Under the pieces are notes generated by a model. It had not been told where the DNA came from and did not search any database. It saw only the letters and a program-made list of their open reading frames with translations. From a virus, in the IMG/VR virus record IMGVR_UViG_3300025154_000016, positions 1 to 52,255 of that record: a DNA stretch of 52,255 bases, one strand, 5' to 3'. Every line of letters starts with the position of its first letter. Within the stretch, counting starts at the first letter, position 1. The translations under genes were made by a program, and so were the position numbers. Shown here in pieces: positions 1,206-50,583 of this stretch.

Positions 1206-1238
1206 TGTTGTTTTCTCCTTTCTATTAATTTAAAAAAA

Positions 1239-1481: not shown

Positions 1482-1780
1482 TTAAAGTCCTCCGCTTTGT
1501 CTAAATACTCATGATAAGATTCTTCTTTTGATTCTTCAAATAAATCATCATCATCTTTTATAGTATCAAAAAATGGCGTCCAAGATTGAACTTGATTTTC
1601 TAAAAGAGTTTGATATTCTTCCCGGGACAAGACCACCTTAATCTTAAAATTCCGATGGTCTAATAACATTCGAGTTGCCGTTTCACAACAATGAATTGCT
1701 TCTTGTTCGGTATCAAATAAGCGTTCAAATTCTACCCAATCGTTTAACAAGAATTCATAGGTCACGAGCCACTGCACCAT
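1478..1780 (-). CDS. Hypothetical acidic protein, 100 aa
   Basis: The start at 1780 is preceded by GGAGGG; longer readings run into the zinc-ribbon gene upstream. The C-terminal third is strongly acidic (a run of Asp and Glu), which could suit a DNA mimic or protein inhibitor, but nothing specific is recognisable. It overlaps both neighbours by stop/start sharing. Confidence 0.7.
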   Translation of the reverse strand: MVQWLVTYEFLLNDWVEFERLFDTEQEAIHCCETATRMLLDHRNFKIKVVLSREEYQTLLENQVQSWTPFFDTIKDDDDLFEESKEESYHEYLDKAEDFK

Positions 1781-1962
1781 TATTGTTTCCCTCCATAGAG
1801 TTTCGCCCATTTTTGATAAACACCACATTGGTCTTTTCCAATACATATATCAAAAAAACAACAAACACATGGACTCAACACATGGGTATACCCGCAGTCA
1901 CATTCCGCAATCCCTTGATAATAAGTTAAGGGATTTCCACAATCGGGACACTCGTCACTCAT
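1780..1962 (-). CDS. Zinc-ribbon protein, 60 aa
   Basis: Almost entirely a cysteine-rich module: CPDCG near the N-terminus, CDCG, then CVCC and two further Cys, enough for two zinc sites. Such mini zinc ribbons in viruses usually bind nucleic acid or host protein; the partner is unknown. GGAGGG precedes the ATG. One of more than a dozen small Cys-rich proteins here. Confidence 0.75.
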   Translation of the reverse strand: MSDECPDCGNPLTYYQGIAECDCGYTHVLSPCVCCFFDICIGKDQCGVYQKWAKLYGGKQ

Positions 1963-2202
1963 TTACATTCCCTCCAAATAATGAAATTGTTTTTCTAACC
2001 ACCACTCTTTAATCCACAATCCATTTCCTTCTAACGGGACTTCCATATTCTCTAAAACTGATAAGGGTATCCAAATTGTTCGTTTATTATATAAATTAAA
2101 CGCAATTGCACGAGGTCGCCGTGCTTCAATCTTGCCTATAATATATACATATTCATTCTCTTTACGAGGTAATTGAGCAAACCAATCATTTAGATTTAGC
2201 AT
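1963..2202 (-). CDS. Conserved-looking viral protein, 79 aa
   Basis: Pattern resembles small phage/plasmid proteins with a KAI...WIP core followed by a Trp-containing segment: here RAIAFNL, then TIWIPLSV, then WIKEWW. Function of that group is unknown to me. The start at 2202 has an upstream GGTGGGGG and shares bases with the stop of a 29-codon ORF (TAATG). The assignment is a weak resemblance, not a domain hit. Confidence 0.65.
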   Translation of the reverse strand: MLNLNDWFAQLPRKENEYVYIIGKIEARRPRAIAFNLYNKRTIWIPLSVLENMEVPLEGNGLWIKEWWLEKQFHYLEGM

Positions 2203-2291
2203 TAGATTAACCCCCACCAATACTCTAACGAGATCCCCCAGTTTTGGAGGGTCTGCATCAATTCAATTTCCGATAAAAGAAAAAAGATCAT
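2202..2291 (-). CDS. Possible micro-protein, 29 aa
   Basis: A 29-codon ORF fills the gap between two genes. Its ATG overlaps the upstream TGA (ATGA) and its TAA overlaps the downstream ATG (TAATG), the two coupling patterns used throughout this strand. The product has a hydrophobic N-terminus and a Trp-rich end. It may be a real peptide or merely carry ribosomes across the gap. Confidence 0.45.
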   Translation of the reverse strand: MIFFLLSEIELMQTLQNWGISLEYWWGLI

Positions 2292-2812
2292 TTATTGACA
2301 ACCTCCAACAATTGCACCATCCCACACCGAATCTTTCCAGTAGTATTATAGGGAACCACAATAGAACATAATGCTTCAATTGGAATCAAGCATTTCCAAA
2401 TTGGATTTGATCTTGAACAATTACCTTTAACCCAATCTAATGTTGCAACATTAATTCCACATCCACAATCATTGGTCGGTAACGGATTGACATTTTCGGT
2501 TAAAATAGATTGTTGTTCAATCTTCCAATTTGGATTTGGTTGATAATTTTCATGAAAGGTTTTATAACAGATTAATCCTAAATTAATCATTTCAAAATGG
2601 GTTTTAAGATATTGAATAGGATCAAATAGGTTTTCAGCCTCACTTAAATCAGCCCCACTTAAATCTGCCCTACTTAAATCTGCCCTACTTAAATTAGCCC
2701 CACTTAAATCAGCCCCACTTAAATCTGCCCTACTTAAATCAGCCCCACTTAAATCGACGGTATATCCGCAATCGACACAAATTAATTTCCACAAAATTTG
2801 AAAAGTTATCAT
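2288..2812 (-). CDS. Pentapeptide-repeat protein, 174 aa
   Basis: After a short N-terminus (residues 1-18, with CVDCG) come about eight A[DN]LSx pentapeptides at roughly residues 19-60, followed by about 110 residues with several Cys. Pentapeptide repeats form a right-handed quadrilateral beta-helix; known members such as MfpA/Qnr mimic DNA, but most have no known role. The array is short (about two coils), so the C-terminal Cys-containing region may be the functional part. The start at 2812 is preceded by GGAGTGGG and overlaps the previous stop. Confidence 0.8.
   Translation of the reverse strand: MITFQILWKLICVDCGYTVDLSGADLSRADLSGADLSGANLSRADLSRADLSGADLSEAENLFDPIQYLKTHFEMINLGLICYKTFHENYQPNPNWKIEQQSILTENVNPLPTNDCGCGINVATLDWVKGNCSRSNPIWKCLIPIEALCSIVVPYNTTGKIRCGMVQLLEVVNK
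2641..2760. repeat. Eight 15-bp tandem repeats
   Basis: Units of YACTTAAATYWGCCC begin at 2641, 2656, 2671, 2686, 2701, 2716, 2731 and 2746 (last one degenerate). They encode the pentapeptide array of the 174-aa protein. Units are nearly identical, so copy number could change by slippage or recombination without breaking the frame. Confidence 0.95.
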
Positions 2813-3123
2813 TAATGTTCCCACTCCTTCCGGGTAATAATCCGATAACCGATATTTTCGACACCGTGTTGTTTAATAAATTCAATATAGATTTTATTTC
2901 CGTTGACTAAATCCGAATCGATATATTGATTACATTCGGGGGCGGTAGGATTAATCCCTAAAATTCCTTTGACAAGTAATGTGCGGAAATCATAAAATTT
3001 TTTAGCTTCTAATTTTTGAATAATTCTTCCGTCTTCCGCAAAGATTGCAGGAGATCCCCAAACCGACCATAACGAATGTCGTTTGACCATTCGCTTCCAA
3101 TATTGTGCTTTTGATTTTGCCAT
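2812..3123 (-). CDS. Hypothetical basic protein, 103 aa
   Basis: No recognised family. The N-terminus is basic (KSKAQYWKRMVKRH), consistent with nucleic-acid contact, but no motif supports a specific role. The chosen ATG (3123) follows GGTGAAAACT, a ribosome-binding cassette used identically by two other genes here (3294 and 42875); the upstream in-frame ATG would place its own start inside that SD. Confidence 0.7.
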   Translation of the reverse strand: MAKSKAQYWKRMVKRHSLWSVWGSPAIFAEDGRIIQKLEAKKFYDFRTLLVKGILGINPTAPECNQYIDSDLVNGNKIYIEFIKQHGVENIGYRIITRKEWEH

Positions 3124-3153
3124 AGTTTTCACCATAGAGTTATTTTAAAAAAA

Positions 3154-3294
3154 TTAGAGTTTATAACACGCTTCGCATAAACAAGCAACATCATTTTCAC
3201 GTTCATAATCATCATTTTCTTTCATAATTACTGCCGAAACAATATAACATTCCATTTCGGGAAAGATTCCTTTTTTACATTTAGAGCATTGCAT
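3154..3294 (-). CDS. Zinc-ribbon protein, 46 aa
   Basis: Short protein with CSKC at the N-terminus and CLCEAC at the C-terminus, a typical four-Cys zinc-ribbon spacing with a longer internal loop. The start at 3294 follows the GGTGAAAACT cassette; an ATG at 3306 lies within that leader. Function unknown. Confidence 0.65.
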   Translation of the reverse strand: MQCSKCKKGIFPEMECYIVSAVIMKENDDYERENDVACLCEACYKL

Positions 3295-3406
3295 AGTTTT
3301 CACCATGTTATCTGACCTTAAAAAAAGTCATTATAACTCAAATAGAAGACTGAATAAAAAAGGTAAGGCTTATAACTTATAGGTTGTAATCTTAGATTAC
3401 ACTTTA
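3295..3406. promoter_or_regulatory. Intergenic region with palindrome, probable leftward promoter
   Basis: This gap contains CTTATAACTTATAG at 3369-3382, a variant of the palindrome family found at operon boundaries in this genome, plus an AT-rich TATA-like stretch. It lies upstream of the leftward genes starting at 3294 and probably begins a transcription unit. Confidence 0.45.
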
Positions 3407-3598
3407 TTATTCATAAAACGAATCTAATGGACAAGGATAATTCGCATGACAACACCCTAATTCATCGGCATTTATACATTTTGTATCTGGATGTGCAAGA
3501 CAAGTATGCCCATAGATTTGACGACAATCATAACATACACCACCTTTAACAAAGGGATGTAATTCTGTTTTACAATATCGACAGTATTTTCTTTTCAT
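3407..3598 (-). CDS. Zinc-ribbon protein, 63 aa
   Basis: Ten Cys residues in 63 aa: CRYCK, CYDC, a single Cys, then C, CC and CPL near the C-terminus. This suggests two or three zinc sites. No specific function recognised. It lies between the palindrome-bearing gap and another small gene. Confidence 0.7.
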   Translation of the reverse strand: MKRKYCRYCKTELHPFVKGGVCYDCRQIYGHTCLAHPDTKCINADELGCCHANYPCPLDSFYE

Positions 3599-3604
3599 AG
3601 ATAA

Positions 3605-3856
3605 TCACACAAGTGAGTTTTTAGATCGCAATAATTGAAATCGTAACAGGGGTTGCTTGACTAAATAATGTAATTGGATTGCTTTTTGATAATTTGTTTC
3701 AATTAAGCGATTATTGGGATGTGGGGGAGTCGATTTCCAGTTTAACGGATTATTGATATATGGATAATTTAATAGTTCCATCCCAAAGGTTGATGCGGAA
3801 TCCGAGAGATAGATGTGTCGATAGGGATTATAATAAGTATCGTTAGAATCACACAT
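3605..3856 (-). CDS. Hypothetical protein, 83 aa
   Basis: No family recognised. The N-terminal half is rich in Asn, Pro and Tyr, the C-terminal half is basic and helical. It ends with a cluster of Arg and Lys. Two bases separate it from the upstream gene. Confidence 0.65.
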   Translation of the reverse strand: MCDSNDTYYNPYRHIYLSDSASTFGMELLNYPYINNPLNWKSTPPHPNNRLIETNYQKAIQLHYLVKQPLLRFQLLRSKNSLV

Positions 3857-3857
3857 C

Positions 3858-4205
3858 TTAAATTTTCCCTCGCATTTCTAAATCTGGAATATGGTCTTTA
3901 AAGACTTCCACATACAATTCGTAGGGTTTAAACTCGATATAGGGATAGAGTTGACAAATCTTATAATAAGTGTCTAATTCGGAGCAATCAATGACGTAAG
4001 ATTTGTGTTTGGTTTGTGGATTATAGGAAATCCGTAAATTAATAAAATGGGAGAGATCTAAATGGGTATTCTGAAAAAAAGGTAATGTCCCAAATCCGCT
4101 TAACGTAATCTCATTTAACCAATGCACCCGAATCCACATGACTTTAAAGTGCCGTTCGAGTTCCGAACTTAAATTATAAAAAAGGGTTTTAAGATAATCA
4201 CTCAT
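3858..4205 (-). CDS. Hypothetical protein, 115 aa
   Basis: Unknown protein with alternating beta-like segments and several aromatic residues. Start uncertain: the ATG at 4205 has a GGAG 16 nt upstream, while an in-frame GTG at 4220 is directly adjacent to the same GGAG. Both are possible. Confidence 0.65.
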   Translation of the reverse strand: MSDYLKTLFYNLSSELERHFKVMWIRVHWLNEITLSGFGTLPFFQNTHLDLSHFINLRISYNPQTKHKSYVIDCSELDTYYKICQLYPYIEFKPYELYVEVFKDHIPDLEMRGKI

Positions 4206-4210
4206 AGGAT

Positions 4211-4357
4211 TTAATGCCACACTCCATTTGTTTTACATTCAATAACCAAAACGGGTTTATCGGCATGATTTTCTTTATCACATTGCTTACAGAACCCGTT
4301 ATGGATAAAAAAGGTCTTAAGACTAATCTTTTTATGACAGTCACCGCATTGGGGCAT
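4211..4357 (-). CDS. Zinc-ribbon protein, 48 aa
   Basis: Compact protein with CGDCH at the N-terminus and CKQCDKEN about 25 residues later, a classical four-ligand zinc ribbon, then a short beta-rich tail. AAGGATGA precedes the ATG. It fills the gap between its neighbours with only a few bases to spare. Confidence 0.65.
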   Translation of the reverse strand: MPQCGDCHKKISLKTFFIHNGFCKQCDKENHADKPVLVIECKTNGVWH

Positions 4358-4359
4358 TT

Positions 4360-4575
4360 TTAATCATCCTTATGCTCACGGGGGCAATACTCTTTAGCGT
4401 CTTCTAAATCGATCAGATCTAATTTGGCTTTGGCATATTTGCAAATTGCTTCGTCAAAGTTCTCAAAGAAATCCCAAAGATCTTTTTCTTTATCGGTTTG
4501 TAAGATTTCTATTGCGCGTTCGATAATATCGTCATTCTCGATTTCAATATCGAAAGTTTGGGTGGTTTTTTTCAT
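4360..4575 (-). CDS. Hypothetical acidic helical protein, 71 aa
   Basis: Asp/Glu-rich, predicted helical after a short beta segment (TFDIEIENDD). No recognised domain. Its ATG overlaps the preceding gene's end, indicating operon expression with the coiled-coil protein upstream. Confidence 0.65.
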   Translation of the reverse strand: MKKTTQTFDIEIENDDIIERAIEILQTDKEKDLWDFFENFDEAICKYAKAKLDLIDLEDAKEYCPREHKDD

Positions 4576-5093
4576 ATTATTTTCTCCTGTTTGATCGTAG
4601 ATTTTAATTGTTCTAATTCATGTTCTAAAAAAAGTTGGGCGGACATAATATTTTGTTTGAGAGTAGAAAGTTTTTCATGGTCTTGGTTCAGATCATTAAT
4701 GGATTTATCAACCATTGTGTGAAAATGTTTCATTTGGGATTCCAACCATGCAACCCGGTCATCTAATCGATCTAATCGTTTTTCCAGATAGGACCGTAAT
4801 TGATTATATTCGGGAGTTGCATCTACATAGGTTTTATAGAGAAATTGGTTTTTATCAAAATCGGTAATCCGTTCAACGAGATAATTTAAAGATTGAAAGA
4901 GAATATGGATATGAGTATTTTGCATTTCCATGATTTGATAAGGGGTCTTTTCTTCGATTGTTTTTGGACCTAATGTATGAACCCGTATATCGAGGGGAAT
5001 ACATTGACTTTCAAAATACCGATTCACATCGTATTTTAATTCAGATAAAAGACTCGCTTTCAGATTCTCGATCAGATTGATTGGTTCCATCAT
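4572..5093 (-). CDS. Coiled-coil protein, 173 aa
   Basis: Residues from about 95 to the C-terminus show heptad-like spacing of Leu/Ile/Met with many charged residues, indicating a long coiled coil. The N-terminal part is mixed. No enzymatic motif. The start is set at the ATGATG after GAGGGAAA; the reading upstream lacks a good SD. It could be a scaffold or adaptor protein. Confidence 0.65.
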   Translation of the reverse strand: MMEPINLIENLKASLLSELKYDVNRYFESQCIPLDIRVHTLGPKTIEEKTPYQIMEMQNTHIHILFQSLNYLVERITDFDKNQFLYKTYVDATPEYNQLRSYLEKRLDRLDDRVAWLESQMKHFHTMVDKSINDLNQDHEKLSTLKQNIMSAQLFLEHELEQLKSTIKQEKII

Positions 5094-5153
5094 TTTCCCT
5101 CGTTTCGTTGCTATATTCATACACAAAATCTAAAAAATAATAGTTCGTGTCAT

Positions 5154-5372
5154 TCAATAATTAAACCACCGTTGTTGGTCAAAGGTATGATATTGTCCAT
5201 CAAAATATTTATCGCCGCTTTCGGGAATAAACTCTCGTTCTAACACTCCATTATGAATTTTTAATTCCCCATTAGAAAAAAGTTCTAACGATAAAATCGA
5301 TGAACGATATTGATAGCCGTTTGGTTTTTCATAGGTAAACCAAAAATATGGATTGGTAGATGAGTTTGTCAT
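5154..5372 (-). CDS. Hypothetical protein, 72 aa
   Basis: Aromatic-rich small protein, predicted mostly beta, without a recognised family. It begins a run of overlapping genes leading down from the RecT-like gene. Confidence 0.6.
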   Translation of the reverse strand: MTNSSTNPYFWFTYEKPNGYQYRSSILSLELFSNGELKIHNGVLEREFIPESGDKYFDGQYHTFDQQRWFNY

Positions 5373-5373
5373 A

Positions 5374-5559
5374 TTAATCTTTCCGAATCAATTTAAACAA
5401 TTCACAGAGGTGTTTATTCGGGATAAAAATATCGCTCATCGGTTCCATCTTAGAATTCAATTGAATCGGTTGATTAAATCGAAACTCAATCCCCATTTCC
5501 CCGTTTTGAGAATCAATCCGCAGAGATTCAATTTGGAGGTTCGCTTTGGTAATGCCCAT
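5374..5559 (-). CDS. Hypothetical protein, 61 aa
   Basis: Small beta-rich protein. The start at 5559 is preceded by GGAGGTTGTGG and shares bases with the TAA of the upstream gene (TAATG). No function can be assigned. Confidence 0.6.
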   Translation of the reverse strand: MGITKANLQIESLRIDSQNGEMGIEFRFNQPIQLNSKMEPMSDIFIPNKHLCELFKLIRKD

Positions 5560-5726
5560 TATTCCACAACCTCCCATTCGAGTAAATCATAAGAATCTCT
5601 TCCTATTTGTTCTAAAATCTCTTTATATTTTTCAGCATCGGTTTTATGTAAAAAGATTTTTTCAATGTGTTGTTCATCGGAAGCACAATGAAAGGAATCA
5701 TTATTACTAATAATATAAATTTTCAT
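5559..5726 (-). CDS. Hypothetical protein, 55 aa
   Basis: Starts MKIYIISNND; no recognised domain. The leader GGGGGTTGATCTA before the ATG nearly matches the leader at 2202, an example of repeated ribosome-binding cassettes. Its start overlaps the stop of the RecT-like gene, so the two are probably co-translated. Confidence 0.6.
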   Translation of the reverse strand: MKIYIISNNDSFHCASDEQHIEKIFLHKTDAEKYKEILEQIGRDSYDLLEWEVVE

Positions 5727-7279
5727 TAGATCAACCCCCGTGCCAACATATACCGCAATCCCCATGCACAATCTTTGGGAGTCCATTTCCCGTTCGAAGC
5801 TTTTAACATAAATTCTAATCGGTCGTCTTCTTTAACGTTAGTTCCTTTCATGACTTCCGCCATCTTTTCGACCCCTTTGACCATATTAATCATCAATTTA
5901 AAATAGGCCAAATCCACTAAATTCATTGCAGGGGGATTTTCGATCATTGTGCAAGCATCATGATACAAGAGAGCTAAGCGATCTTTTCTGTTAATTGGAT
6001 CATTGCACAGATTTTCAAATTGCTCTTGAATTTTCGCTTTCAATTGCGGACAAATCGGGTCTAACGCAATCTCAAAAGCAACAATATTTTGATCAGTAAT
6101 CACCAATTCTTCCGATTCTTGCAACCCTACGGACGCAAACCAATCTTCCCCAATCCGAATAAAATTCTCTTCGGTTAACAACGATTCATCGGTAATGGTC
6201 ATGGTTTGGAACGGCCACGGTTTAGTAATCTCTTTTTTGATCGGGAGTTCCGGTAAAGTGACTCTTTTAGTTTCATTCAAGGCTTTCAGATCGGGTTTTT
6301 TAGTTTGTTTGGTCTCGGATTTCTTTTCTTTAATTGGTTCTTCAATAATAGGTTCTTCATCAATAACTTCCACATGATCGGGAGGTGGTGGTAATTCCGC
6401 AATCTTATCTTGTTTGATTTGTTCGATTTCTTCTTTGGTAGGAGGACTAAAATTCACAATCTCGGTTTGAACGGGTTCTGCATAAAATTCGGGTTGATGT
6501 ACTTCGGAAACATCCACTTCTTTCATTTCGAGATCTTCTTCTAAATCAACCACTTCAAAGATTTCTTCGACGACGGGTTCTACAATCGGTAAAGGAGCGG
6601 GTTTCGGGGCTTCGGGAATTAATTGAGAAATAGTAATTGGTGCGGATTCTGTTTTAGGAACGGAATTAGTAAAGGAAGTCTGAATCGAATCCATTTCGTA
6701 AAAACCCGTATCCGTAATGGTCATGCCGTGAAGACACCCTCGATCTAACGCCCTTATCGCAAAACTATAATTGTTTTTCGCAATCATATTTTGCTGGTTG
6801 TTGTAGCCTTCCCAATTTTTATTATTCTTTTTGAGTAAACCTTGATCTTGAGCATCTACAATTGAAAATTTAAATAAAGTCCACGGTTTGCTTGGATTCA
6901 CACGGACATTCATTTTATGGATAGTATTCGACATTTCAATAACATCAAATTGAGCATAGGGATGTGCCGATTTAAACAGTGACATCGCGGTATCAATTCC
7001 AATTCCTAATGATCCTTGAATCATCATGAGTTCATTAGCGAAATCTTCGGGAATCCCACGGGCTTTACAATAACTTAACCGAATCGCATATTCATCGCGT
7101 TTATATTGTTCATCACTTTCTTTGCTTTTTGGAACGGGCGGAAAATGTCCGTGATCCATATAAATTTGAGCGACATCCCGATATTTGTAAAACGACGGTT
7201 CTAATTGGGCTTCCACGGCTGCCACTCGTTCCTCAAAATCATCTATTTTTGGTTCTTGTTGTTTGGGTTCTTTCATCAT
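5726..7279 (-). CDS. RecT/Bet-like single-strand annealing protein with long acidic linker (putative)
   Basis: 517 aa. Residues about 45-185 follow the general layout of RecT/Bet annealing proteins: a helical N-terminus, a segment on gip...gi.idtA, a region resembling the DAQDQGLL..NW..Y pattern, and an Ala/Arg-containing helix ending in LHGM. Residues about 205-345 are a low-complexity, Pro/Glu-rich linker with a Lys-rich patch, and 350-517 form a separate globular domain that I do not recognise. Annealing proteins pair complementary single strands during replication-linked recombination; the neighbouring PCNA, helicase and putative DNA-binding genes fit. GAGGG precedes ATGATG. The call is from pattern only; another DNA-binding role is possible. 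Confidence 0.5.
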   Translation of the reverse strand: MMKEPKQQEPKIDDFEERVAAVEAQLEPSFYKYRDVAQIYMDHGHFPPVPKSKESDEQYKRDEYAIRLSYCKARGIPEDFANELMMIQGSLGIGIDTAMSLFKSAHPYAQFDVIEMSNTIHKMNVRVNPSKPWTLFKFSIVDAQDQGLLKKNNKNWEGYNNQQNMIAKNNYSFAIRALDRGCLHGMTITDTGFYEMDSIQTSFTNSVPKTESAPITISQLIPEAPKPAPLPIVEPVVEEIFEVVDLEEDLEMKEVDVSEVHQPEFYAEPVQTEIVNFSPPTKEEIEQIKQDKIAELPPPPDHVEVIDEEPIIEEPIKEKKSETKQTKKPDLKALNETKRVTLPELPIKKEITKPWPFQTMTITDESLLTEENFIRIGEDWFASVGLQESEELVITDQNIVAFEIALDPICPQLKAKIQEQFENLCNDPINRKDRLALLYHDACTMIENPPAMNLVDLAYFKLMINMVKGVEKMAEVMKGTNVKEDDRLEFMLKASNGKWTPKDCAWGLRYMLARGLI

Positions 7280-10433: not shown

Positions 10434-11444
10434 TTATTCTTTATTTTTAAGTAAAAATTGGGGATCAACCGCTTTAAAACTGAGTCGTCCATCACAAGCC
10501 GAATCTGTTAATGTGCCATCTATGGCTCTTACGACAATTCCTTCTCGTAATACTGAAATATTTGAATTAACGACACTAAATCCATGTGCATATTCTAATA
10601 TCTCATCAACTGTTTGATCTAAATAATATTGATCATTTATAATTGGAACCATAGGTAATTCTAATTGATTACAAATCGATTTCATTGCGTCTAATGAAAG
10701 ATAGCGATGATTAGGAATATCATAGAGACTAAAGAAATGCATTTGATAATCAGTGAGTTTATATTTATTACCGCCAATTTTAGGACCAATACATTCGCCT
10801 TGAAGGGCTAACCCTTCTAATAATCGGTCTTCTAAATGATATTTCCAAGCCATTTTCCATTGAAAGGAATCTTCATTACAAACTAACTCTTGATTGCGAC
10901 TACAGACACCAAAAACACCTTGATATTTATAAAATGTTAAGGAAGTTCCATCGACTTTTTCTGTCACGTAAAAGGGTTCATCTTTCCATCGTTGTAAGAA
11001 AGTTGGAATTGTTTGAATTCGTACTTCATCTGTTTTTGGAATAAACGAAGGAAAAGATCCTTTTGCATTCGGATTGGATACCACATCAATAATGGGTTCC
11101 CATTTAGTGACACCTAATAATTCTGTTACATCTAACCCATTAACTAAATTGACATTAGATAATTCAGGAAATTTAGGATAAATCGGTAAGGCTAATCCTT
11201 GACTAATTTGACCTTTCATTTTGACGGTTCGTAAATGATGGCGATCTTCGGCTTTCGCATTTTCATTAATCCAACTTAATGGAATAACAGAATCGATTTC
11301 AATATAGAGACATAAATCTCCTTTTTTAAATTCTCCTTTTCGAGCGACTAAATCCCAACCTAATACTTTAAGTCGTTCGATTTTATCGGCATCTTGAATA
11401 GGTTGAACATCCAAGACTTCTTGAATACTGGCTAATTTTCGCAT
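10434..11444 (-). CDS. RNA ligase, DRB0094 family
   Basis: 336 aa. The N-terminal about 110 residues match the OB-like domain of DRB0094-type RNA ligases (ASIQEVLDVQPI, GWDLVARKGEFKKGDLCLYIEIDSVIP). The nucleotidyltransferase core follows: motif I EKVDGTS with Lys163 as the adenylated residue, motif III-like LQGECIG at about 213-219, motif IV REGIVVRA at 300-307 and motif V SFKAV at 322-326. Such ATP-dependent enzymes seal nicked RNA, often repairing host-damaged tRNA during infection. All key residues are present. It is separated from its neighbours by short gaps. Confidence 0.9.
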   Translation of the reverse strand: MRKLASIQEVLDVQPIQDADKIERLKVLGWDLVARKGEFKKGDLCLYIEIDSVIPLSWINENAKAEDRHHLRTVKMKGQISQGLALPIYPKFPELSNVNLVNGLDVTELLGVTKWEPIIDVVSNPNAKGSFPSFIPKTDEVRIQTIPTFLQRWKDEPFYVTEKVDGTSLTFYKYQGVFGVCSRNQELVCNEDSFQWKMAWKYHLEDRLLEGLALQGECIGPKIGGNKYKLTDYQMHFFSLYDIPNHRYLSLDAMKSICNQLELPMVPIINDQYYLDQTVDEILEYAHGFSVVNSNISVLREGIVVRAIDGTLTDSACDGRLSFKAVDPQFLLKNKE

Positions 11445-32659: not shown

Positions 32660-33150
32660 TGACCGATTATGATTCAACAGTGTATGGAATTTGTATTTCC
32701 ACATCGATTACGGGTTCGGGAACCACTGCGTATCCCGCGGGGGATCGAATGTTTTTTATAACCGATAAAATTAATGGGAATGAAACCTTTCTCCAGAAAA
32801 TTAAAGAAGTTGCGGGAGGCAATTCTTATTCGAATAAAGACGGTAAACGCACATGTATTATAACTTTAGGGGATTGTCCTATTGTAAGCGGGTCTTCTGT
32901 CTTTAATACAATGATTCCGAAATTGAAGGATGAACACCGAGCGGGGCAAGGGGTCTTATATTTTTGGATTAAAACCTTAAGTAGTGGCGCACCGAATTGG
33001 GGTGCTGCTGCAAATACATTATATATTGGATATACGGCAGCGGGAGCAGAAACCAACTATATGAGTGGGTATTGCACGACTTTCAAATGGGAAATCGAAG
33101 GGAATTTATATTGGATTAAAAGTTTGAGTTTTAAGGAGTGTTTGGTTTGA
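32659..33150 (+). CDS. Distal tail-region protein, 163 aa
   Basis: Beta-rich protein between tape measure and the large tip protein, the place of distal tail proteins. Start ATG 32659 shares bases with the previous TAA. No motif identifies it. Confidence 0.6.
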   Translation: MTDYDSTVYGICISTSITGSGTTAYPAGDRMFFITDKINGNETFLQKIKEVAGGNSYSNKDGKRTCIITLGDCPIVSGSSVFNTMIPKLKDEHRAGQGVLYFWIKTLSSGAPNWGAAANTLYIGYTAAGAETNYMSGYCTTFKWEIEGNLYWIKSLSFKECLV

Positions 33151-33206
33151 TATGGTACTCATTTTTTATAATATTATTAACAATAACACCAATAGGAGAA
33201 ACAAAT

Positions 33207-36200
33207 ATGGTTAAAAAATTAGATGCAGTAGATAGCACAATTGATTTAGATATAACTAAAAGTGGAATTCGAAACATTTGGTTTGATGGAACCTATTATT
33301 TTATCGCTGATGTCGTTTTAGGAACGGGAAAGATCTATCGTTATAATTCTTCATGGGGTTCAAAAACAGAAGTCTGGTCGGGAACGATCTTTAAACAAGC
33401 CACTAATCAAGTTTCAGCAATCCCTTCAATCGGATATGTTAATTCTACATATTATGTTTTATTTTCTACAACATCTGGGGATGGAGCTTTATCCTATAAT
33501 AATATGGCGGTTCGCGTAGTCTCATCGACTGCGGGAGGAGGGGCAGCCACATGGACAGCCACAACTATTATTGATTCTGCTCCAGGTATAGCTCCCGTTA
33601 TAAATCAAATTCAAATTTTAGGAATTAGTACGACCCCTTATTTAGCGATAATTGGAGGCGCAAGTGGATCATCTAAATCTGGGTTAGCCATGACAGATAT
33701 AGATGGAGTACCTTTACATGTTTTGACATCTACAGGGCAATATACGGGATGTTTTTCTGATGGTACATACATCTGGTTTTTACATTGGTTAGCCGCAAAT
33801 ACATATGCAATCTATAAATGGTCGGCTGCGGGCGGCTTTGTTAGTGATTCAACTCCAACTTTAACGGGAGGATCGAATATTAATATGGATTATGCTCAAT
33901 ATTGGCGTGTAGGTCCTGCCCAATACATTATCTGGAAAGATATTTTTTATTATTGGTTGAATACAACCGATGGGTGGAAATTAGTGCCTAATTTAGATTC
34001 AGATAATCCTATTCCGCATTGGTCATTAGATGGCACCACGTTAGAAATTAATGCGGTCACGTATGGCAATCGCTATATAGAAGTCTTTGGATCGCAAATT
34101 GGAATGTATGCGTTATCCACCACATTAGTGCCAAAATTTGCATGGGATACCTATGTGGGAGAAGCAACTAATTTATATCAAATTACGACTGTGTCAGATA
34201 CAACCATCTTTGGCAAAGGAACTTATAAAATTGAAACGTATCCAACAGCCGATTTAGATTATCCGATCGAACCCTTTGAAGATCAAGCGATTAAACTCTA
34301 CGATTCCAACGATACCCAATTGATTCGGGGTTCCATGACCATCAGTAATGATGATAATATTGCCCCGTATATTATAACGGTGGAATCCTTTGCCAAAATT
34401 GATTTAAGTAAACCGATTACCTATTCGGGTACGAATAAAACTTTAGATGAAGCGATTACGGCAATCTTACCCTTAAATTGTGATTATATCATTAAAGGGA
34501 CATTTTCCACATCTGCTACGCCCCGGGATTATTCATGTATTGATATTCAACTCCAAGATTTGTTAACCGATTGGTGTCATGCCGATGGTAAAATTTGGTA
34601 TCTCGATGGGGAAGATCAACTCTATATTGATGCGGGAGCGGAAGATTCAACCAAAGATGTCTTAAGTGCGTCAGGGGTGTTTTGTGACATTAAACCCGCT
34701 CGGTTATTAAAGAAAGTCGGGACTGTCGAAGTGTGGGGGCAAGATGGGGCGTATTATAAGAAATCTTCAAATACTTCAAATGGGTATGTGTCGGATATTA
34801 AATACAGTATGCCTCAAGCTCAGATTGAAGAATGGGCAAATAGCGTCTTAACTAATACCTCCGTGAAAGTCCAACAATATATCTTAGGGAATGTGAATGT
34901 GGGGTTCTTTATTATTGGACAACAGATTACGCTCGAACAGAATTTTGCACCTTATAATATTACTTCCGATCAATATTATACCAAAGAAGGGGTGTTTGAT
35001 TATGTGACCGAACAATGGGACAAGATTATTGTACATGATGTGTTGCATTATTCGGTGGAAGCAATGGAACTTTCGGTTGAAAAAGTCGAAGATCATGTCA
35101 CGTATGTGGAAAATCGAATCGGAGAAGTGATTGAGACCGAGGTTGTGAAAGTGGATTCTTCGATTTCAAGCACGGTCGATGACTACAAGCGGGCGGGGGC
35201 ATTGGAGTGGGGTAGTTCGGGTGATCCCACTATTGGATCTATTGTAGAGCAAACCAATTGTGATGTGTCGATTCAAAGTAATTATTTGGATCATAATTAT
35301 CCATTAGAAATCTCCGATCAAGATGCCAGTTATTATGGACGTTGGTATTATGATTTCGGTGCAACATCAACACCTCAATATTTTAGTTGTTGGGTATCTG
35401 TTGATACAGCAGCTAAATCAACTTATTTATCAATTACTGCAAATGCATCTGGATTTACTACAGCTAATTTATCATTATTTCTGATCTTTGAATCAGATAA
35501 TAATATTAAAATCTACAATGGAGCAACATTAACAACAATCATGGCATACAGCCCAGCGACATGGTATCATATTGAATCATATTTAGATTGCTCAACTGAT
35601 ACATATACTTTATTTATTGATGGCACATATATCAATACATATGCTTTTAGAACAGTATTATCTGAAATACAATTTGTTACATTTTCAACTGTTGCTGGAA
35701 CTACTGGTTATAAATCCTATTTAGATGCGGTTTATATTGGCACAGACTACAAAGCCGCATGGGGTTCGCTCTATCCCGATCCGATCTTGAGTCGGCAATT
35801 GATTGCAGAAGATGGTTTTCGGCATGTGGATCGCTTTACAGACCAAGAAGTGGCGGGGGTCAAGACGTTTAGTGACTATATTCTGCTTTCTACCCCTTCC
35901 GCATTTTGTGTGGATAAAAATGATGCTCAAGCAATTCCTACGGCAGATGATACCAAAATAGCATTTGATGATGAAGATTATGATGATAATAGCGAATATG
36001 ATGCAGCAACTAATTATCGGTTTACGTGTAAGCGGGCGGGACTTTATCATTTTGATACCAGTGTATTATTAGCGGCTTCGGCTTGGACGGCGGGACAATA
36101 TACGTGGATTGCATTTTATAAGGGTGGTTCTAATTATAGAGTAGTTGATTCTTTTGAAATCGAAGCAAATGGTACGTTTGAGGTTCAATTATCAGGATCA

Positions 36201-36326
36201 ATGGATATTAAACTTGCGATTAATGATTATATTGAAGTTTGGGTTTACCATACGCGAGGAGCAGATACAAACACATCAGCCAGTGCGTTATATAATTATT
36301 TCAACGGACATCGGGTGATTGGATAA
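33207..36326 (+). CDS. Tail tip / receptor-binding protein, modular, 1039 aa
   Basis: Start ATG 33207 follows AGGAGA; an upstream GTG in frame adds 23 hydrophobic residues without an SD. Residues about 1-310 show repeated beta strands with IWFDGTYY and FSDGTYIWFL, like a beta-propeller; about 315-640 resemble a baseplate-hub domain (TTIFGKGTYKIETYP, LQDLLTDWCHADG); 640-680 coiled coil; 690-865 a concanavalin/LamG-like jelly roll (WYHIESYLDCSTDTYTLFIDG); 890-1039 a C1q-like trimer domain (TCKRAGLYHFDTSVLL). It probably both caps the tail and binds the host cell surface. Parts are markedly more AT-rich, suggesting domain exchange. Confidence 0.75.
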   Translation: MVKKLDAVDSTIDLDITKSGIRNIWFDGTYYFIADVVLGTGKIYRYNSSWGSKTEVWSGTIFKQATNQVSAIPSIGYVNSTYYVLFSTTSGDGALSYNNMAVRVVSSTAGGGAATWTATTIIDSAPGIAPVINQIQILGISTTPYLAIIGGASGSSKSGLAMTDIDGVPLHVLTSTGQYTGCFSDGTYIWFLHWLAANTYAIYKWSAAGGFVSDSTPTLTGGSNINMDYAQYWRVGPAQYIIWKDIFYYWLNTTDGWKLVPNLDSDNPIPHWSLDGTTLEINAVTYGNRYIEVFGSQIGMYALSTTLVPKFAWDTYVGEATNLYQITTVSDTTIFGKGTYKIETYPTADLDYPIEPFEDQAIKLYDSNDTQLIRGSMTISNDDNIAPYIITVESFAKIDLSKPITYSGTNKTLDEAITAILPLNCDYIIKGTFSTSATPRDYSCIDIQLQDLLTDWCHADGKIWYLDGEDQLYIDAGAEDSTKDVLSASGVFCDIKPARLLKKVGTVEVWGQDGAYYKKSSNTSNGYVSDIKYSMPQAQIEEWANSVLTNTSVKVQQYILGNVNVGFFIIGQQITLEQNFAPYNITSDQYYTKEGVFDYVTEQWDKIIVHDVLHYSVEAMELSVEKVEDHVTYVENRIGEVIETEVVKVDSSISSTVDDYKRAGALEWGSSGDPTIGSIVEQTNCDVSIQSNYLDHNYPLEISDQDASYYGRWYYDFGATSTPQYFSCWVSVDTAAKSTYLSITANASGFTTANLSLFLIFESDNNIKIYNGATLTTIMAYSPATWYHIESYLDCSTDTYTLFIDGTYINTYAFRTVLSEIQFVTFSTVAGTTGYKSYLDAVYIGTDYKAAWGSLYPDPILSRQLIAEDGFRHVDRFTDQEVAGVKTFSDYILLSTPSAFCVDKNDAQAIPTADDTKIAFDDEDYDDNSEYDAATNYRFTCKRAGLYHFDTSVLLAASAWTAGQYTWIAFYKGGSNYRVVDSFEIEANGTFEVQLSGSMDIKLAINDYIEVWVYHTRGADTNTSASALYNYFNGHRVIG

Positions 36327-41774: not shown

Positions 41775-41830
41775 CCTTATTATAAGGTTAGAAAGAAGGA
41801 AAAAATAGATTGACCTTATAAATTATAAGG
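41775..41830 (-). promoter_or_regulatory. Two palindromes before the 54-aa gene, overlapping the Mom-like gene end
   Basis: CCTTATTATAAGG (41775-41787) and the perfect 17-bp CCTTATAAATTATAAGG (41814-41830) are the best pair in the palindrome family. The second overlaps the stop codon of the Mom-like gene. They probably form a promoter/operator for the leftward genes below. Confidence 0.5.
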
Positions 41831-42536
41831 TTTTAGGATATGGTAAAATCGGATATTTCAATTGAGATAATAATTCTTTCTTTCGTTTTTTTTTATATTC
41901 TTTACAAATAGGATTAAGAAAGACATATCTATGTTTAATCGACCGTTCTTCAAAGGATACTTTATCCCCAAATGTTTCTTTAATTTGTTCAATTGACATT
42001 CCATGTGCAAATGTTGCATGATGTTGATTTTCTAATCCTTTTACTTTTGGATCTTGAAATGGAATTGATTTTCCAGTATAATATGCCGAACATGCTTGAT
42101 AGATAATTCCTAAATGATTTTGCTTTGTATCGGCATAACTTACAATAATTTCTTTATCAAGTAAAGGAATTGTGTGCATAACAAACCAAGATTCTCCATT
42201 TTTAGGAACAGATTTATCTATCCAAAGACGGTTTAATTCATAAACATTATGTTGATTTTGTTCTCCCGCAATACCTTTTAGTAGTGTCGAACTTGGACTA
42301 ACTCCATAAGTTATAACTCCTTTTAAGATATTTTGAGGATATTCAAATAAACCAAATGCTTTTGAAATAGGGCATGAACGATGAAGATAATGATTTTTTA
42401 CCACAATATTGATTGCTCTTTGAGAATTAATCATCTTAATATAATATTTATCTTTGAATAATTCTTTGGGTTTTTGAAAAGAATAAAACAAATCTTGACA
42501 ATCAAAGGAACTTATTTTTGAAATTAATTTCGTCAT
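41823..42536 (-). CDS. Mom-like DNA modification acyltransferase
   Basis: 237 aa. The pattern of Mu Mom is visible: an N-terminal strand with IVVKNHYLH, KGVITYGVSP, then VYELNRLWI, PKNGESWFV, EIIVSYADT and LGIIYQACSAYYTG, ending in KHRYVFL. Mom is a GNAT-related enzyme that adds a carbamoylmethyl group to adenine N6 and protects phage DNA from host restriction. Start at 42536 after AGGTGATTATT; the GTG at 42545 is in the SD. Gene is more AT-rich than its neighbours. It lies next to the methylase/TGT-like cluster. Confidence 0.75.
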   Translation of the reverse strand: MTKLISKISSFDCQDLFYSFQKPKELFKDKYYIKMINSQRAINIVVKNHYLHRSCPISKAFGLFEYPQNILKGVITYGVSPSSTLLKGIAGEQNQHNVYELNRLWIDKSVPKNGESWFVMHTIPLLDKEIIVSYADTKQNHLGIIYQACSAYYTGKSIPFQDPKVKGLENQHHATFAHGMSIEQIKETFGDKVSFEERSIKHRYVFLNPICKEYKKKRKKELLSQLKYPILPYPKTL

Positions 42537-42593
42537 AATAATCACCTAATAAAGATAATGAAAAAAGATTGAGATAATCTATTATAAGATCGG

Positions 42594-42875
42594 TTATTTG
42601 AGTAAGAACGGATACACTCGTTCCAAATCACTCATCATTTTGAGAATCTTTTCTGATAATGATTCTAAGATCGGATATTCACTATACGAAAAGGTATGCC
42701 ATTGTTCGATAGTAGCCCACATATCCGAATACAAATAATCCGCTTCTTCAGATTCTTTCTCTTGGTTCGTCCATAAATAATTATTGAAATGGATAAACCG
42801 ATTGGACAGATCAGCAAATTTCAACTTAAATGACAAGACCCGTTGATCAGGATGATACATCACAGTTTGACACAT
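42594..42875 (-). CDS. Hypothetical protein, 93 aa
   Basis: Helical, Trp- and Tyr-containing, acidic middle. No recognised domain. Start at 42875 after the GGTGAAAACT cassette. Directly upstream of the Mom-like gene, so perhaps co-expressed. Confidence 0.6.
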   Translation of the reverse strand: MCQTVMYHPDQRVLSFKLKFADLSNRFIHFNNYLWTNQEKESEEADYLYSDMWATIEQWHTFSYSEYPILESLSEKILKMMSDLERVYPFLLK

Positions 42876-42905
42876 AGTTTTCACCATAATTCAATAATAA
42901 AAAAA

Positions 42906-43073
42906 TTATTTCGTTAATCCATAGATTAATTCTTCAATGTATAAACATTGGTCAAGGACTTCAACTTCTTTTTCTGTATTGGGAATAAGTTGAAGTGTTT
43001 TTTTTAACATAGATAATTTCGTTTTTAACCGTAAGGTCATATCTTGAAGTATTTCGATTTCAATAAAATCCAT
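42906..43073 (-). CDS. Small helical protein, 55 aa
   Basis: Acidic start, Lys-rich middle helix (LRLKTKLSMLKK), acidic end. AGGAGTGAAATGT precedes the ATG. First leftward gene at the divergent promoter of the modification island, so possibly its regulator. Confidence 0.55.
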   Translation of the reverse strand: MDFIEIEILQDMTLRLKTKLSMLKKTLQLIPNTEKEVEVLDQCLYIEELIYGLTK

Positions 43074-43213
43074 ACATTTCACTCCTAAAATTAATTAAGA
43101 AATCGAACTATTTAACTCTTACTATAGGATTACTATAGATAAGATACTATATAAAGACTTGATAAAATAGAAATATATAAATACTATAGGGTTTACTATA
43201 GTAATAGATTGTT
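43074..43213. promoter_or_regulatory. Divergent promoter with ACTATAG repeats
   Basis: Heptamers ACTATAG begin at 43121, 43132, 43183 and 43195, with an ACTATAT at 43145. Spacings are 11, 13, 38 and 12 bp, close to whole helical turns. TATA-like sequence (ACTATATAAAG, AATATATAAATA) lies between them. This suggests cooperative binding by a viral repressor controlling both directions of the island. Confidence 0.6.
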
Positions 43214-43399
43214 ATGAATTCTCAAAAAAAACGAACAATTAGTTTTTATATGCCTAAAGAGATTGAAGGAAATCCCAAAGAAATCCTTCAAGAACTCGGT
43301 CAGTTGTTTATGGCTTTTGCAAGTCATGTCACTGAAGATGATTTAAATGAAATGAAAGAAGCCTATCCTAAAGCATTTAATTTTGTGGAGGCTATTTAA
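43214..43399 (+). CDS. Small protein, 61 aa, possible regulator
   Basis: Begins with a basic strand-like segment (KKRTISFYMPKE) followed by two helices. The order strand-helix-helix is compatible with ribbon-helix-helix proteins but the match is weak. It is the first gene of the rightward island operon and adjoins the ACTATAG boxes. Confidence 0.5.
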   Translation: MNSQKKRTISFYMPKEIEGNPKEILQELGQLFMAFASHVTEDDLNEMKEAYPKAFNFVEAI

Positions 43400-43400
43400 A

Positions 43401-43730
43401 ATGCCAAAATTAATCGCGGGTAAAACGAAAATTATTAAAGAAGAAAAGAAAGAATTATTAAATCCCGACGATGCGGAATGGTATGATCGCGAGACGCTCC
43501 AAGAACTTAAAGTCCAACTGAAAGCAAAACCCGTTAAAGAATCTAAAAAGAAAGCCGACAAACCTTCCTTAATTTCGATAACGGAAAAAGAGAAGTTTAT
43601 CAACTGGCTCCGAACGTCCACTTCGAATAATCCCCAACTCAAACGTATCAGACTCAAAGATGGCGGCTTCCGCGATTGTGTGCCACGAGGGATGATCGAT
43701 TTGTTCAATGAATATGTGGAGGAAACATAA
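43401..43730 (+). CDS. Basic hypothetical protein, 109 aa
   Basis: Lys-rich N-terminus, then a possible small alpha/beta domain (EKEKFINWLRTS, RIRLKDGGFRDCVPRGM). Start at 43401 after GGAGG. Its stop overlaps the start of the methylase-fold gene (TAATG), which implies tight coupling and perhaps a partner role. Confidence 0.65.
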   Translation: MPKLIAGKTKIIKEEKKELLNPDDAEWYDRETLQELKVQLKAKPVKESKKKADKPSLISITEKEKFINWLRTSTSNNPQLKRIRLKDGGFRDCVPRGMIDLFNEYVEET

Positions 43731-44431
43731 TGAAATTCATTCAAACCGATTTTTTTACCTATCCGTTTACCGAAACAATTCAAGGAATAGTCACGGACGT
43801 TCCCTATAAAGGATGTCTGACCAATAAACTCGAAGAAAAAGATTTCGATGTCGCGTGGTTCCTTCAAAAATGTGATGAATTAACTCCCCCAAATTCCTTT
43901 TTAATTACGTTTTCCAATATGGCAATGATTTTAGATATGCGGAGTTTAGCTAAAGATACTAAATGGGAATTTCAAACTTATCAAATCTGGAATAAAGAAC
44001 CTGTGAGAACATGGATTGCATGGTCAAGACCCTTACGCACATGTGAGTTTGTGTTATATTTTACGAAAGGTAATTATAAACTTAATTTTAAAAATGGAGA
44101 AGTTAAACCTATGAAAAAACGGAATTCATTTGGAGGTTCCCTTAAACAAACTAATCCTAATACCAATAAAGAATCATTTGGAATGTATTCTGAAATAGTT
44201 AATTATCATACCCCTAAAACTAAAATTCATCCAACCCAAAAACCAACAGAATTTAGTTCTATGTTTAAGCAAGTGTTGGGAAATCCCGAAGGAATTATAT
44301 TAGATCCATTTTGTGGTTCGGGTTCCTTATTACATTCCTTTTCTAATTCGATTGGCATTGATGTGAAAGATTGGATTTATCCCAAAAATAAAACGCTTGC
44401 ACAATGTATGGAAGAGGTGAAATCTAAGTGA
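43730..44431 (+). CDS. DNA methyltransferase-fold protein, N4/N6 type, variant motif IV
   Basis: 233 aa in beta-group order: motif IV first, as TDVPYKG at 22-28 in place of (D/S)PP(Y/W), then a target-recognition region, HPTQKP at 167-172, and motif I DPFCGSGS at 192-199. Loss of the first Pro in motif IV is unusual, since DPPY positions the target amino group. It may be an active variant or may act on another base or RNA. It is coupled to the basic protein upstream and the TGT-like gene downstream. Confidence 0.75.
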   Translation: MKFIQTDFFTYPFTETIQGIVTDVPYKGCLTNKLEEKDFDVAWFLQKCDELTPPNSFLITFSNMAMILDMRSLAKDTKWEFQTYQIWNKEPVRTWIAWSRPLRTCEFVLYFTKGNYKLNFKNGEVKPMKKRNSFGGSLKQTNPNTNKESFGMYSEIVNYHTPKTKIHPTQKPTEFSSMFKQVLGNPEGIILDPFCGSGSLLHSFSNSIGIDVKDWIYPKNKTLAQCMEEVKSK

Positions 44432-45225
44432 TTTTCATGACGGATATTTCGACTGATTGTTCGAACTATTGTTTACTTAATATTAAGAAATATGATGATC
44501 CACGCAAAGCAAAGAAGAAATTAATCTTTGTTGATCCTGATGTGATGAGTTTACGCACCCATCGAGAATATCCTTTAATTGATAAACTTTTATGGTTAGC
44601 TAATGGTCATTTACAACCCAACGAATATTTAGGTTTAGACATGCCTTCCGACATGAATCATCAATATGAAGATGAATTTATTCGCAAATCCATTGAACGA
44701 AATTGGCAATTTAAAGACAATCTGCAATATATTTGTGGGATACAATATAAGTTTTTGGATATAAACAATTTTAAGATTCAAATGAAAGCATTAGAACCCA
44801 TTTATGATCATAAACAAAAGATAGTGGGATTAGGAAATTTATGTCGATTATTATTAGGAAGGCGAAAGAAAACCAATCCCGAATATGTTTACTTTCAACA
44901 AATTATTAATTATATAATTGAGAATAAAGAAAAGTTTTATTGGATTCATATTTATGGCATGTCCAAATTTGCGATTTGTTCATTTATTCCCTTACTGCAA
45001 AAACACGCACCAAAGATTATTATTAGTGTCGATAATACCAAATGGACTAAATGCGGGAATAAAGAATTACATGATAAATATGTCTTACCCAAAGGTCAAT
45101 CGCAATTACTTCCGACTACACATAAAATGACAGGTGTGGGTTGCACAAAAGCCAATCGGAATGAGTTTTTAGAGATTGGATATATAAAAGATTTTAAAAA
45201 AGCAAACATTAAGATTCAATATTAG
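44428..45225 (+). CDS. TGT/DpdA-like TIM-barrel protein
   Basis: 265 aa from GTG 44428, which has GAGGTGA eight bases upstream and overlaps the previous stop. The TIM-barrel landmarks of phage DpdA-type enzymes are visible: LGLDMPSD at 68-75, YICGIQY at 101-107, GLGNLCR at 134-140, WIHIYGMS at 172-179 and SVDNTKW at 200-206. The two Asp residues match the catalytic pair in tRNA-guanine transglycosylases. DpdA exchanges guanine in DNA for 7-deazaguanine derivatives. No precursor-biosynthesis gene is present; an archaeal host would supply preQ0 through archaeosine synthesis. Call by pattern only. Confidence 0.55.
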   Translation: MIFMTDISTDCSNYCLLNIKKYDDPRKAKKKLIFVDPDVMSLRTHREYPLIDKLLWLANGHLQPNEYLGLDMPSDMNHQYEDEFIRKSIERNWQFKDNLQYICGIQYKFLDINNFKIQMKALEPIYDHKQKIVGLGNLCRLLLGRRKKTNPEYVYFQQIINYIIENKEKFYWIHIYGMSKFAICSFIPLLQKHAPKIIISVDNTKWTKCGNKELHDKYVLPKGQSQLLPTTHKMTGVGCTKANRNEFLEIGYIKDFKKANIKIQY

Positions 45226-45228
45226 ATC

Positions 45229-45987
45229 TTACAAAAACGCCGTGATCTTTTTTCGCTTGTTCTTTTTGTTGCGATCTTGTCCTAATTGAATCCGATGTAA
45301 AATATCTAAATCGTAACCCGCTGGTAATCCTTTATCGGAAAGATTCAATTCGGTACCAATCCATTTAATACCTAACGATTCCCCGACTTCAGCTAAACAA
45401 CCCGATCCCATAAATGGATCATATACTAAACTCGGTTTAAGATCTTGTATCATTTCAGCCCATGTTTTATAATCTTTGGGAGATGGATGGTTGTATTTAT
45501 ATTCTTCGTCTCGCAAGAATCCGTTATGGATATAAGTTTCATAGACATCCCGATGAAATTTATGCTCTTTCCACCATTGCTCGTCCCCAAAACAGTAATA
45601 ATCCATTTTTGCAGAATAGTGAGAGATTTTAGTTGATCCTTGCCCATTTTTATAATAGAGTGTTACCCAGTCAATAGGTTGAAAAGATTCAATCCACCAT
45701 TGTTTATGTTTGCGTCCAACACAGATTATTTGAGCTTTGGAGACCCGTTGGGCTTCTAAAAACCAGTTTATATGAAATTCGGGATTCCATTGATCATTAT
45801 AAGGCACACGATCTTGTTTATGGGCTTTTTGATTAATACCCATTGGTTTTTGGGCATGATCTTGATAATCATGTCCCCATAATGTGTCGGTAAAAATAAG
45901 ATCGATGGATTTGTCGGGTAAGGATTGCATATATTCCAGACAATCTTTAATAATACACATTCCATAAGTGCCTTCAATCAGATTCAT
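45229..45987 (-). CDS. DNA methyltransferase-fold protein, altered motif IV
   Basis: 252 aa, unrelated at first sight to the other methylase but also beta-group: FTDTLWG at 32-38 in the place of DPPY/W, HPSPKD at 167-172 and motif I YDPFMGSGC at 189-197. Both Pro residues of motif IV are missing. C-terminus is basic. Convergent with the TGT-like gene with only three bases between the stop codons. It might be a non-methylating DNA-binding protein or act on a modified base. Confidence 0.7.
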   Translation of the reverse strand: MNLIEGTYGMCIIKDCLEYMQSLPDKSIDLIFTDTLWGHDYQDHAQKPMGINQKAHKQDRVPYNDQWNPEFHINWFLEAQRVSKAQIICVGRKHKQWWIESFQPIDWVTLYYKNGQGSTKISHYSAKMDYYCFGDEQWWKEHKFHRDVYETYIHNGFLRDEEYKYNHPSPKDYKTWAEMIQDLKPSLVYDPFMGSGCLAEVGESLGIKWIGTELNLSDKGLPAGYDLDILHRIQLGQDRNKKNKRKKITAFL

Positions 45988-49780: not shown

Positions 49781-50530
49781 TTAAATAATCTCCTTGGCTT
49801 GCGTGGTTAATAATTTTTGGTTGTGTTGAAAAAAGGTCGGACCAAAATCCGGCACATTACTATTCGTTCCTTTGAGTTTATTATTTCGAGTATAAGTGAG
49901 TTGAGTTTCGAGTATCCATTTAAGAATACAAAGCGGGGTTTTAAACAATTCTAAAAGAATGAGCGATTGTTTTTTCCCGATCCCAATTAATCCACTTAAG
50001 AAATATCGTTGTTGGTCGATTAAAGCGGTTTCCTTTTTTGCTTTATTCGTAGGATCGTGGTGGTCTTTCTTTTCAATGCTTGTTAAGAAGAAATCCATAA
50101 TAATTTGCCATGTTTCTTCATGAGACGTGCTATATTCGATATGTTGATCATAATCTAAGATTAATTCTGTTTTAATCTTAACCCACATCTTTTCGGTAAA
50201 ATGTTGATTAAAAAACTTTGATCCTGGTTCGATTTGGATAATAATAATGGACCGTTTAAAATTCGCATAGCGGGATGCGGATTGCTCCCACAATCGTCCA
50301 TCATAAAGCGACGCTAACAAATCCGACGCATTCATGTGCATTTGGGGATTCCATGATTTCGAGATTCTCTTGATTTCAAAGACAATCTCTTCTGAGACTT
50401 GCACGTCCCCAATATTCAAATTATCAAAGACGGGTTTCCAAATACAATTTTCATTATATTGAGTTATGATATAATCTTTAAACCCGCTGGCTGCCTCACG
50501 ATTATCAACGGGAATCGGATGTTGATCCAT
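49781..50530 (-). CDS. XPF/ERCC4-type nuclease with C-terminal HhH
   Basis: 249 aa. Motifs of the archaeal XPF/Hef nuclease: VDNRE at 8-12, IGD at 40-42, then FEIKR at 51-55 (ERK-like core with Glu52 and Lys54) and DLLASLYDGRLWEQ at 70-83. A helix-hairpin-helix-like segment LIGIGKKQS is at about 181-189. These enzymes cut branched DNA near junctions; it probably resolves replication or recombination intermediates. Start at ATG 50530; a perfect palindrome lies 38 nt upstream and no SD is seen, so translation may be near-leaderless. Confidence 0.85.
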   Translation of the reverse strand: MDQHPIPVDNREAASGFKDYIITQYNENCIWKPVFDNLNIGDVQVSEEIVFEIKRISKSWNPQMHMNASDLLASLYDGRLWEQSASRYANFKRSIIIIQIEPGSKFFNQHFTEKMWVKIKTELILDYDQHIEYSTSHEETWQIIMDFFLTSIEKKDHHDPTNKAKKETALIDQQRYFLSGLIGIGKKQSLILLELFKTPLCILKWILETQLTYTRNNKLKGTNSNVPDFGPTFFQHNQKLLTTQAKEII

Positions 50531-50583
50531 ATTAAACAATTAAGAAGAAAAAAAGATTAAGGTTGACCTTATATTTTATAAGA
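50531..50583 (-). promoter_or_regulatory. Promoter with CTTATATTTTATAAG palindrome
   Basis: Exact third copy of the 15-bp palindrome at 50568-50582, in the gap before the nuclease gene. At 38 nt from the ATG it can double as TATA element and operator. Confidence 0.5.

Follow-up and report, generated by a model that had tools for sequence, protein, structure and literature searches.

The genes analyzed here lie at positions 41823-45987 of a 52-kb viral record (IMG/VR record IMGVR_UViG_3300025154_000016), whose whole analyzed stretch of 52,255 nucleotides is referred to below as the window. All four genes are intact and, as the initial annotation had stated, fall within 4.2 kb. Their order is a Mom-family gene on the minus strand, a divergent region, a methyltransferase gene (MT1) and the gene of a 265-residue protein on the plus strand, and a second methyltransferase gene (MT2) on the minus strand. 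The features of the locus are as follows.

41823-42536, minus strand: Mom-family DNA adenine-modifying enzyme, 237 residues from the ATG at 42536; a GTG at 42545 is also possible as the start
43083-43213: divergent control region between the Mom side and the MT1 side, with repeat copies, and with TATA-like boxes recognized by eye
43214-43399, plus strand: 61-residue ORF that opens the rightward unit (ORF only)
43383-43730, plus strand: 115-residue ORF, probable start at ATG 43401, overlapping the MT1 start (ORF only)
43730-44431, plus strand: MT1, N6_N4 DNA methyltransferase (PF01555, phrog_67, alignment)
44428-45225, plus strand: 265-residue probable TGT-fold, DpdA-like protein (motif-block score; family models without a match)
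45229-45987, minus strand: MT2, N6_N4-type DNA methyltransferase (PF01555, phrog_67, CcrM model, PDB CcrM)

The rightward unit consists of the two small ORFs, MT1 and the 265-residue protein gene, all on the plus strand and overlapping or nearly so. In Pfam and PHROGs, no family match was found for the 61-residue ORF and no credible one for the 115-residue ORF. The start of the 265-residue protein gene overlaps the MT1 stop and is preceded by a Shine-Dalgarno-like sequence. MT2 is convergent with this gene, its own gene end lying 3 bases past that of the latter, and it is grouped with the minus-strand genes to its right, outside the MT1/265-residue unit. The proposed arrangement of four genes around one divergent promoter thus applies to Mom and the MT1/265-residue pair, which diverge from 43083-43213, but not to MT2, which belongs to another unit.

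The sequence TTACTATAG occurs in four exact copies in the whole window, all of them in an 86-base stretch (43119-43204) of the divergent region, and two of the copies form the palindrome TTACTATAGTAA; the array, including the palindrome, is operator-like. TATA-like boxes can be seen by eye on both strands, at about 43148-43156 and 43171-43183, upstream of both divergent units. The confinement of the four copies to this region points to a common control of the Mom and MT1/265-residue units, and co-regulation of both divergent operons via these putative sites is probable.

The Mom-family protein and the two methyltransferases

The 237-residue protein had been described as Mom-like, in agreement with the family comparisons: it matched Pfam Mom (PF25680, E 5.3e-35; 121 bits against a curated cut-off of 27.1, residues 34-238), phrog_1384 "Mom-like" (E 3e-37) and the solved Mom structure PDB 8bv8 (E 3.9e-7). 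Additionally, tblastn matched it directly to the Mom proteins of phages Mu (3e-4) and D108. Its likely start, the ATG at 42536, lies a few bases after an AGGTGA sequence. The closest relatives are found in uncultured viruses (up to 48% identity) and in Roseobacter phage CRP-902 (47%), and the block YADTKQNHxGxIYQA is common to the protein and the aligned viral relatives. By sequence, the leftmost protein can be firmly assigned to the Mom family of DNA modifiers. It belongs to the same family as phage Mu Mom across nearly its full length, whereas the identity is about 29% over 46% of the protein and the genes flanking Mom in the window differ from those in Mu.

MT1 matched PF01555 above the cut-off (E 9.2e-14, 52.3 bits) and phrog_67 (1.4e-13). 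The PF01555 match of MT2 was just under the curated cut-off of 26.7 (E 3.8e-5, 24.2 bits), and MT2 also matched phrog_67 (1.2e-10), a CcrM model (2.8e-10) and PDB CcrM (2e-5); no relatives of MT2 were found in IMG/VR. As shown by the alignment, both proteins keep the permuted order of motif IV, HP(T/S) and motif I, the individual motifs being TDVPY, HPTQKP and DPFCGSG in MT1, and an unusual motif IV (TDTLWG) with an intact motif I (DPFMGSG) in MT2. Homology places both among the AdoMet-dependent enzymes whose methylation target is adenine N6 or cytosine N4, and they share the IV-then-I order, the intact motif I and the HP(T/S) motif with the N6_N4 methyltransferases (PF01555; CcrM, DpnA, phage "dam"). 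Of the altered motif IV ascribed to both enzymes in the initial annotation, only that of MT2 stands out. Since the aligned relatives of MT1 carry DPPY, DLPY and DIPY, its DVPY is not exceptional and represents ordinary variation of DPPY/W; the DTLW of MT2 lacks both prolines and had no counterpart among the relatives aligned.

Motif analysis of the 265-residue protein

No TGT or DpdA model in Pfam, PHROGs or NCBIfam and no such PDB sequence matched the 265-residue protein; PF01702 and PF23859 gave no match even at E 10, nor did phrog_887 at E 1. Direct searches of viral contigs, genomes, phages and plasmids yielded no relatives of its gene, and neither did an alignment-steered scan. Two candidates from a DNA pattern scan were dismissed as chance matches. 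The two AlphaFold2 models were poor (pLDDT 37.8 and 43.7), for which reason the Foldseek searches performed with them were uninformative and carry no meaning as regards the TGT fold.

In order to have real DpdA proteins for comparison, we assembled sequences of the CAjan and MED16 types and of the Orion type, which corresponds to Pfam PF23859 and to which we take phage Orion's own enzyme to belong. The Orion-type set was reached by a bridge query, a consensus of a bacterial enzyme family, which served as a probe only; the evidence comes from the real sequences retrieved. Three motifs are present in order in the C-terminal half of the 265-residue protein: VGLGNLCR (133-140), HIYG (174-177) and SVDNTKW (200-206). 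With the Orion-type profile, the protein was the top ORF of the window, the three consecutive motifs being aligned together with their catalytic residues. The profile of the CAjan/MED16-type proteins failed to single it out, and an initial block test based on these proteins gave a weak result, since the protein was narrowly outscored by a tail-fibre-like ORF. Counting conserved positions over the whole length did not help to discriminate, as a genuine DpdA itself scored only 13.

A motif-block test was then based on matrices built from Orion-type proteins only, with loose spacing ranges that were set with the 265-residue protein in view. The protein scored 39.0, which is within the range of other genuine DpdA subfamilies (20.5-51.6), while the highest score was 31.9 among 60,000 shuffles and 27.2 among 966 other ORFs; an extreme-value fit gave a more cautious p of 3e-4. 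The signal came from the C-terminal half, and the N-terminal half gained no support. There, DPDV (in DPDVMS, 36-39) occupies the place where the DSGG/DSGAF pocket motif was expected, so that Asp36 is kept and SGG is lost. The 265-residue protein thus shares VG(I/V/L)G(S/N)xC(R/K), H.(F/Y)G, S(V/A)D(S/N)xxW and the catalytic Asp with the Orion-type DpdA proteins of mycobacteriophages and haloarchaeal plasmids and with the TGT superfamily, from which it differs in the missing PF23859 and PF01702 matches, in DPDV replacing DSGG and in extra residues between the motifs. Of the earlier description as DpdA-like, the three ordered C-terminal motifs hold, whereas family-model matches and the DSGG pocket are missing.

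The failed structure predictions and the lack of significance of the profile hits (E about 0.1 in the window set and about 1.2 in an enlarged set) would fit an orphan viral protein outside the TGT fold whose motif order is a chance resemblance. We consider this unlikely, because in the enlarged set the protein still ranked above every other ORF and 3,000 shuffles, its block score was attained by no shuffled sequence and no other ORF while being on par with distant but genuine DpdA subfamilies, and the TGT/DpdA hypothesis preceded the block test. A TGT-fold ancestry is accordingly judged likely on these motifs, and the protein is probably a divergent TGT-fold relative; as for an exchange of guanine in DNA, the odds are about even. 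This enzyme is the weakest link of the modification island.

It may instead be a TGT/DpdA descendant that has lost 7-deazaguanine insertion, being inactive, acting on another substrate (tRNA or a different base) or serving as a DNA-binding partner of MT1, so that Mom and the methyltransferases would be the sole working layers. The change of DSGG to DPDV, the aspartate of (R/Q)D(Y/W)xC, which is only ambiguously retained (D71), and the lack of a close homologue on which selection could be read speak for such a loss. Against it, the catalytic half keeps H174, D202 and W206 and most of VGLG(N/S)xCR, and the coding sequence is undamaged and tightly linked to MT1. We regard this as a tentative alternative, somewhat less than likely yet ahead of chance resemblance. 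Rather improbable, and more speculative than either, is a double hypermodification by an archaeal virus, in which adenine would be modified via Mom and guanine via a TGT-fold enzyme whose rebuilt pocket (DPDV for DSGG) would take up, instead of preQ0, a different base, which might be the archaeosine base or another host metabolite.

The virus, its host and the supply of precursor

The virus is tailed and has replication genes of the archaeal type. The window encodes a PCNA clamp that matches, among other PDB entries, archaeal clamps at about 1e-25 (the first entry, 3k4x, being a fused construct), as well as a D5-type helicase/primase, an RNA ligase and an ERCC4/XPF-type nuclease domain. The latter is found in a protein encoded at 49781-50539 on the minus strand (ERCC4, Pfam 2.1e-9). 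The RNA ligase (10434-11444, minus strand; PF09414 9e-29, phrog_968 1e-64) is encoded close to the PCNA gene and perhaps repairs cleaved tRNA. A large protein encoded after the tail genes (33138-36326, plus strand) contains a terminal C1q-like domain (3.4e-8) and a sialidase-type carbohydrate-binding module (9.3e-8), and is probably a receptor-binding fibre. No relatives of the terminase were found in IMG/VR. The PCNA clamp, the ERCC4/XPF-type domain and the TATA-like boxes seen by eye make the archaeal host assumed in the initial annotation likely, although they fall short of proof.

No preQ0 synthesis genes turned up in those window ORFs that were scanned with Pfam, so that supply by the host would be needed. 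Phages with a lone DpdA that use host precursors have been described, namely Salmonella phage 7-11 (PMC6884629) and Pantoea phage MED16 (PMC8306585), and for HRTV-29, a virus of archaea, the use of a host-drawn precursor by DpdA has been proposed (PMC8651126). The DNA of phage Orion is unmodified because preQ0 synthesis is missing from the host as well as from the phage (PMC6884629).

Interpretation and counterparts in other viruses

The initial annotation knew of no described virus with this combination of enzymes, a statement that does not hold. According to a review, the jumbo phage vB_PaeM_PA5oct has five momylating enzymes and a system for deazaguanine synthesis and incorporation (PMC7824862). 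Moreover, an unrelated viral contig of 81.6 kb (IMGVR_UViG_3300030511_000001, referred to as L076) has a methylase, Mom, DpdA and another methylase within 3.7 kb:

2124-2990: D12 methylase
3238-4014: Mom
4097-4909: DpdA (PF23859, 2.2e-45)
4986-5771: N6_N4 methylase

A gene for a DUF5131 protein directly precedes these four, the five genes being consecutive at 864-5771. Mom was present in 1 of 80 viral loci with an Orion-type DpdA, the single case being L076, and PF23859 matched nothing in 17 other viral records that carry Mom. The set of Mom, DpdA and methylases thus occurs rarely but repeatedly, and the virus of the window is not alone in having it. Of 13 viral records with Mom, 8 also carry an N6_N4 methylase, as do 19 of 50 records with DpdA, and no DpdA is annotated within 20000-57797 of the Mom phage DillTech15. 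In two further loci (L012:5234-6579 and L011:4187-5532), a gene for an SPPY-type methylase lies directly before the Mom frame and overlaps it, which suggests Mom-methylase operons in other viruses. DpdA genes adjoin or lie near cytosine DNA methyltransferase genes in phage Epa33 (L030:363-1465) and in a Nostoc plasmid (L039:251-1283).

The reading that we prefer, with a probability of about 0.6, is that a tailed virus, probably one of archaea, has assembled several DNA-modifying enzymes that act independently of each other in one locus directed against restriction. The DNA-modification gene cluster as such is well supported, and anti-restriction is its most likely function. By homology, Mom would attach an acyl-type group to adenine N6, and MT1 and MT2 would methylate adenine N6 or cytosine N4. 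The 265-residue protein, translated together with MT1, may carry out a TGT-fold, DpdA-like base exchange, in which Asp202 would act as the nucleophile and guanine would be swapped for a deazaguanine precursor that the host makes for archaeosine. The restriction sites protected would differ from mark to mark, with the layers acting in parallel and not as one pathway. The homology of Mom and the methyltransferases, the overlap of MT1 with the 265-residue protein gene, the motif-block test, the recurrence in L076, the frequency of N6_N4 methylases in records with Mom or DpdA, the precedent of PA5oct, and the PCNA and ERCC4 genes support the anti-restriction island; the rarity with which Mom and DpdA occur together, as counted above, speaks against it, as do the lack of a family assignment and of relatives for the 265-residue protein, its DPDV pocket, its unsupported N-terminal half and its poor structure models.

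No support was found for the joint or sequential modification that had also been considered possible. The physical clustering of the genes and the same set of activities in L076 could be read as one pathway in which the four enzymes produce a single compound or a sequential hypermodification. We reject this as very improbable, because the known chemistries concern different bases (adenine N6 and the exchange of the guanine ring) and Mom and DpdA mostly occur apart; moreover, N6 methylation would compete with Mom, and MT2 lies in another transcription unit.

If the anti-restriction reading is true, Mom-type adenine modification extends to archaeal viruses, and its neighbour there would be a base-exchange enzyme that no current DpdA model covers. 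That Mom, DpdA and methylases recur in an unrelated virus suggests that viruses accumulate, at a single locus, DNA disguises of different chemistry. As in the window, whose DpdA is a probable and divergent one, Mom, DpdA and two methylases are gathered in L076; in this unrelated contig, however, all four genes are on one strand, the DpdA is canonical, and one of the methylases is of the D12 class, which is absent from the window. PA5oct likewise combines in one genome Mom enzymes and a deazaguanine incorporation system, as proposed for the virus of the window, but it is a bacterial phage of very large size, which has five Mom enzymes as well as synthesis genes of its own.
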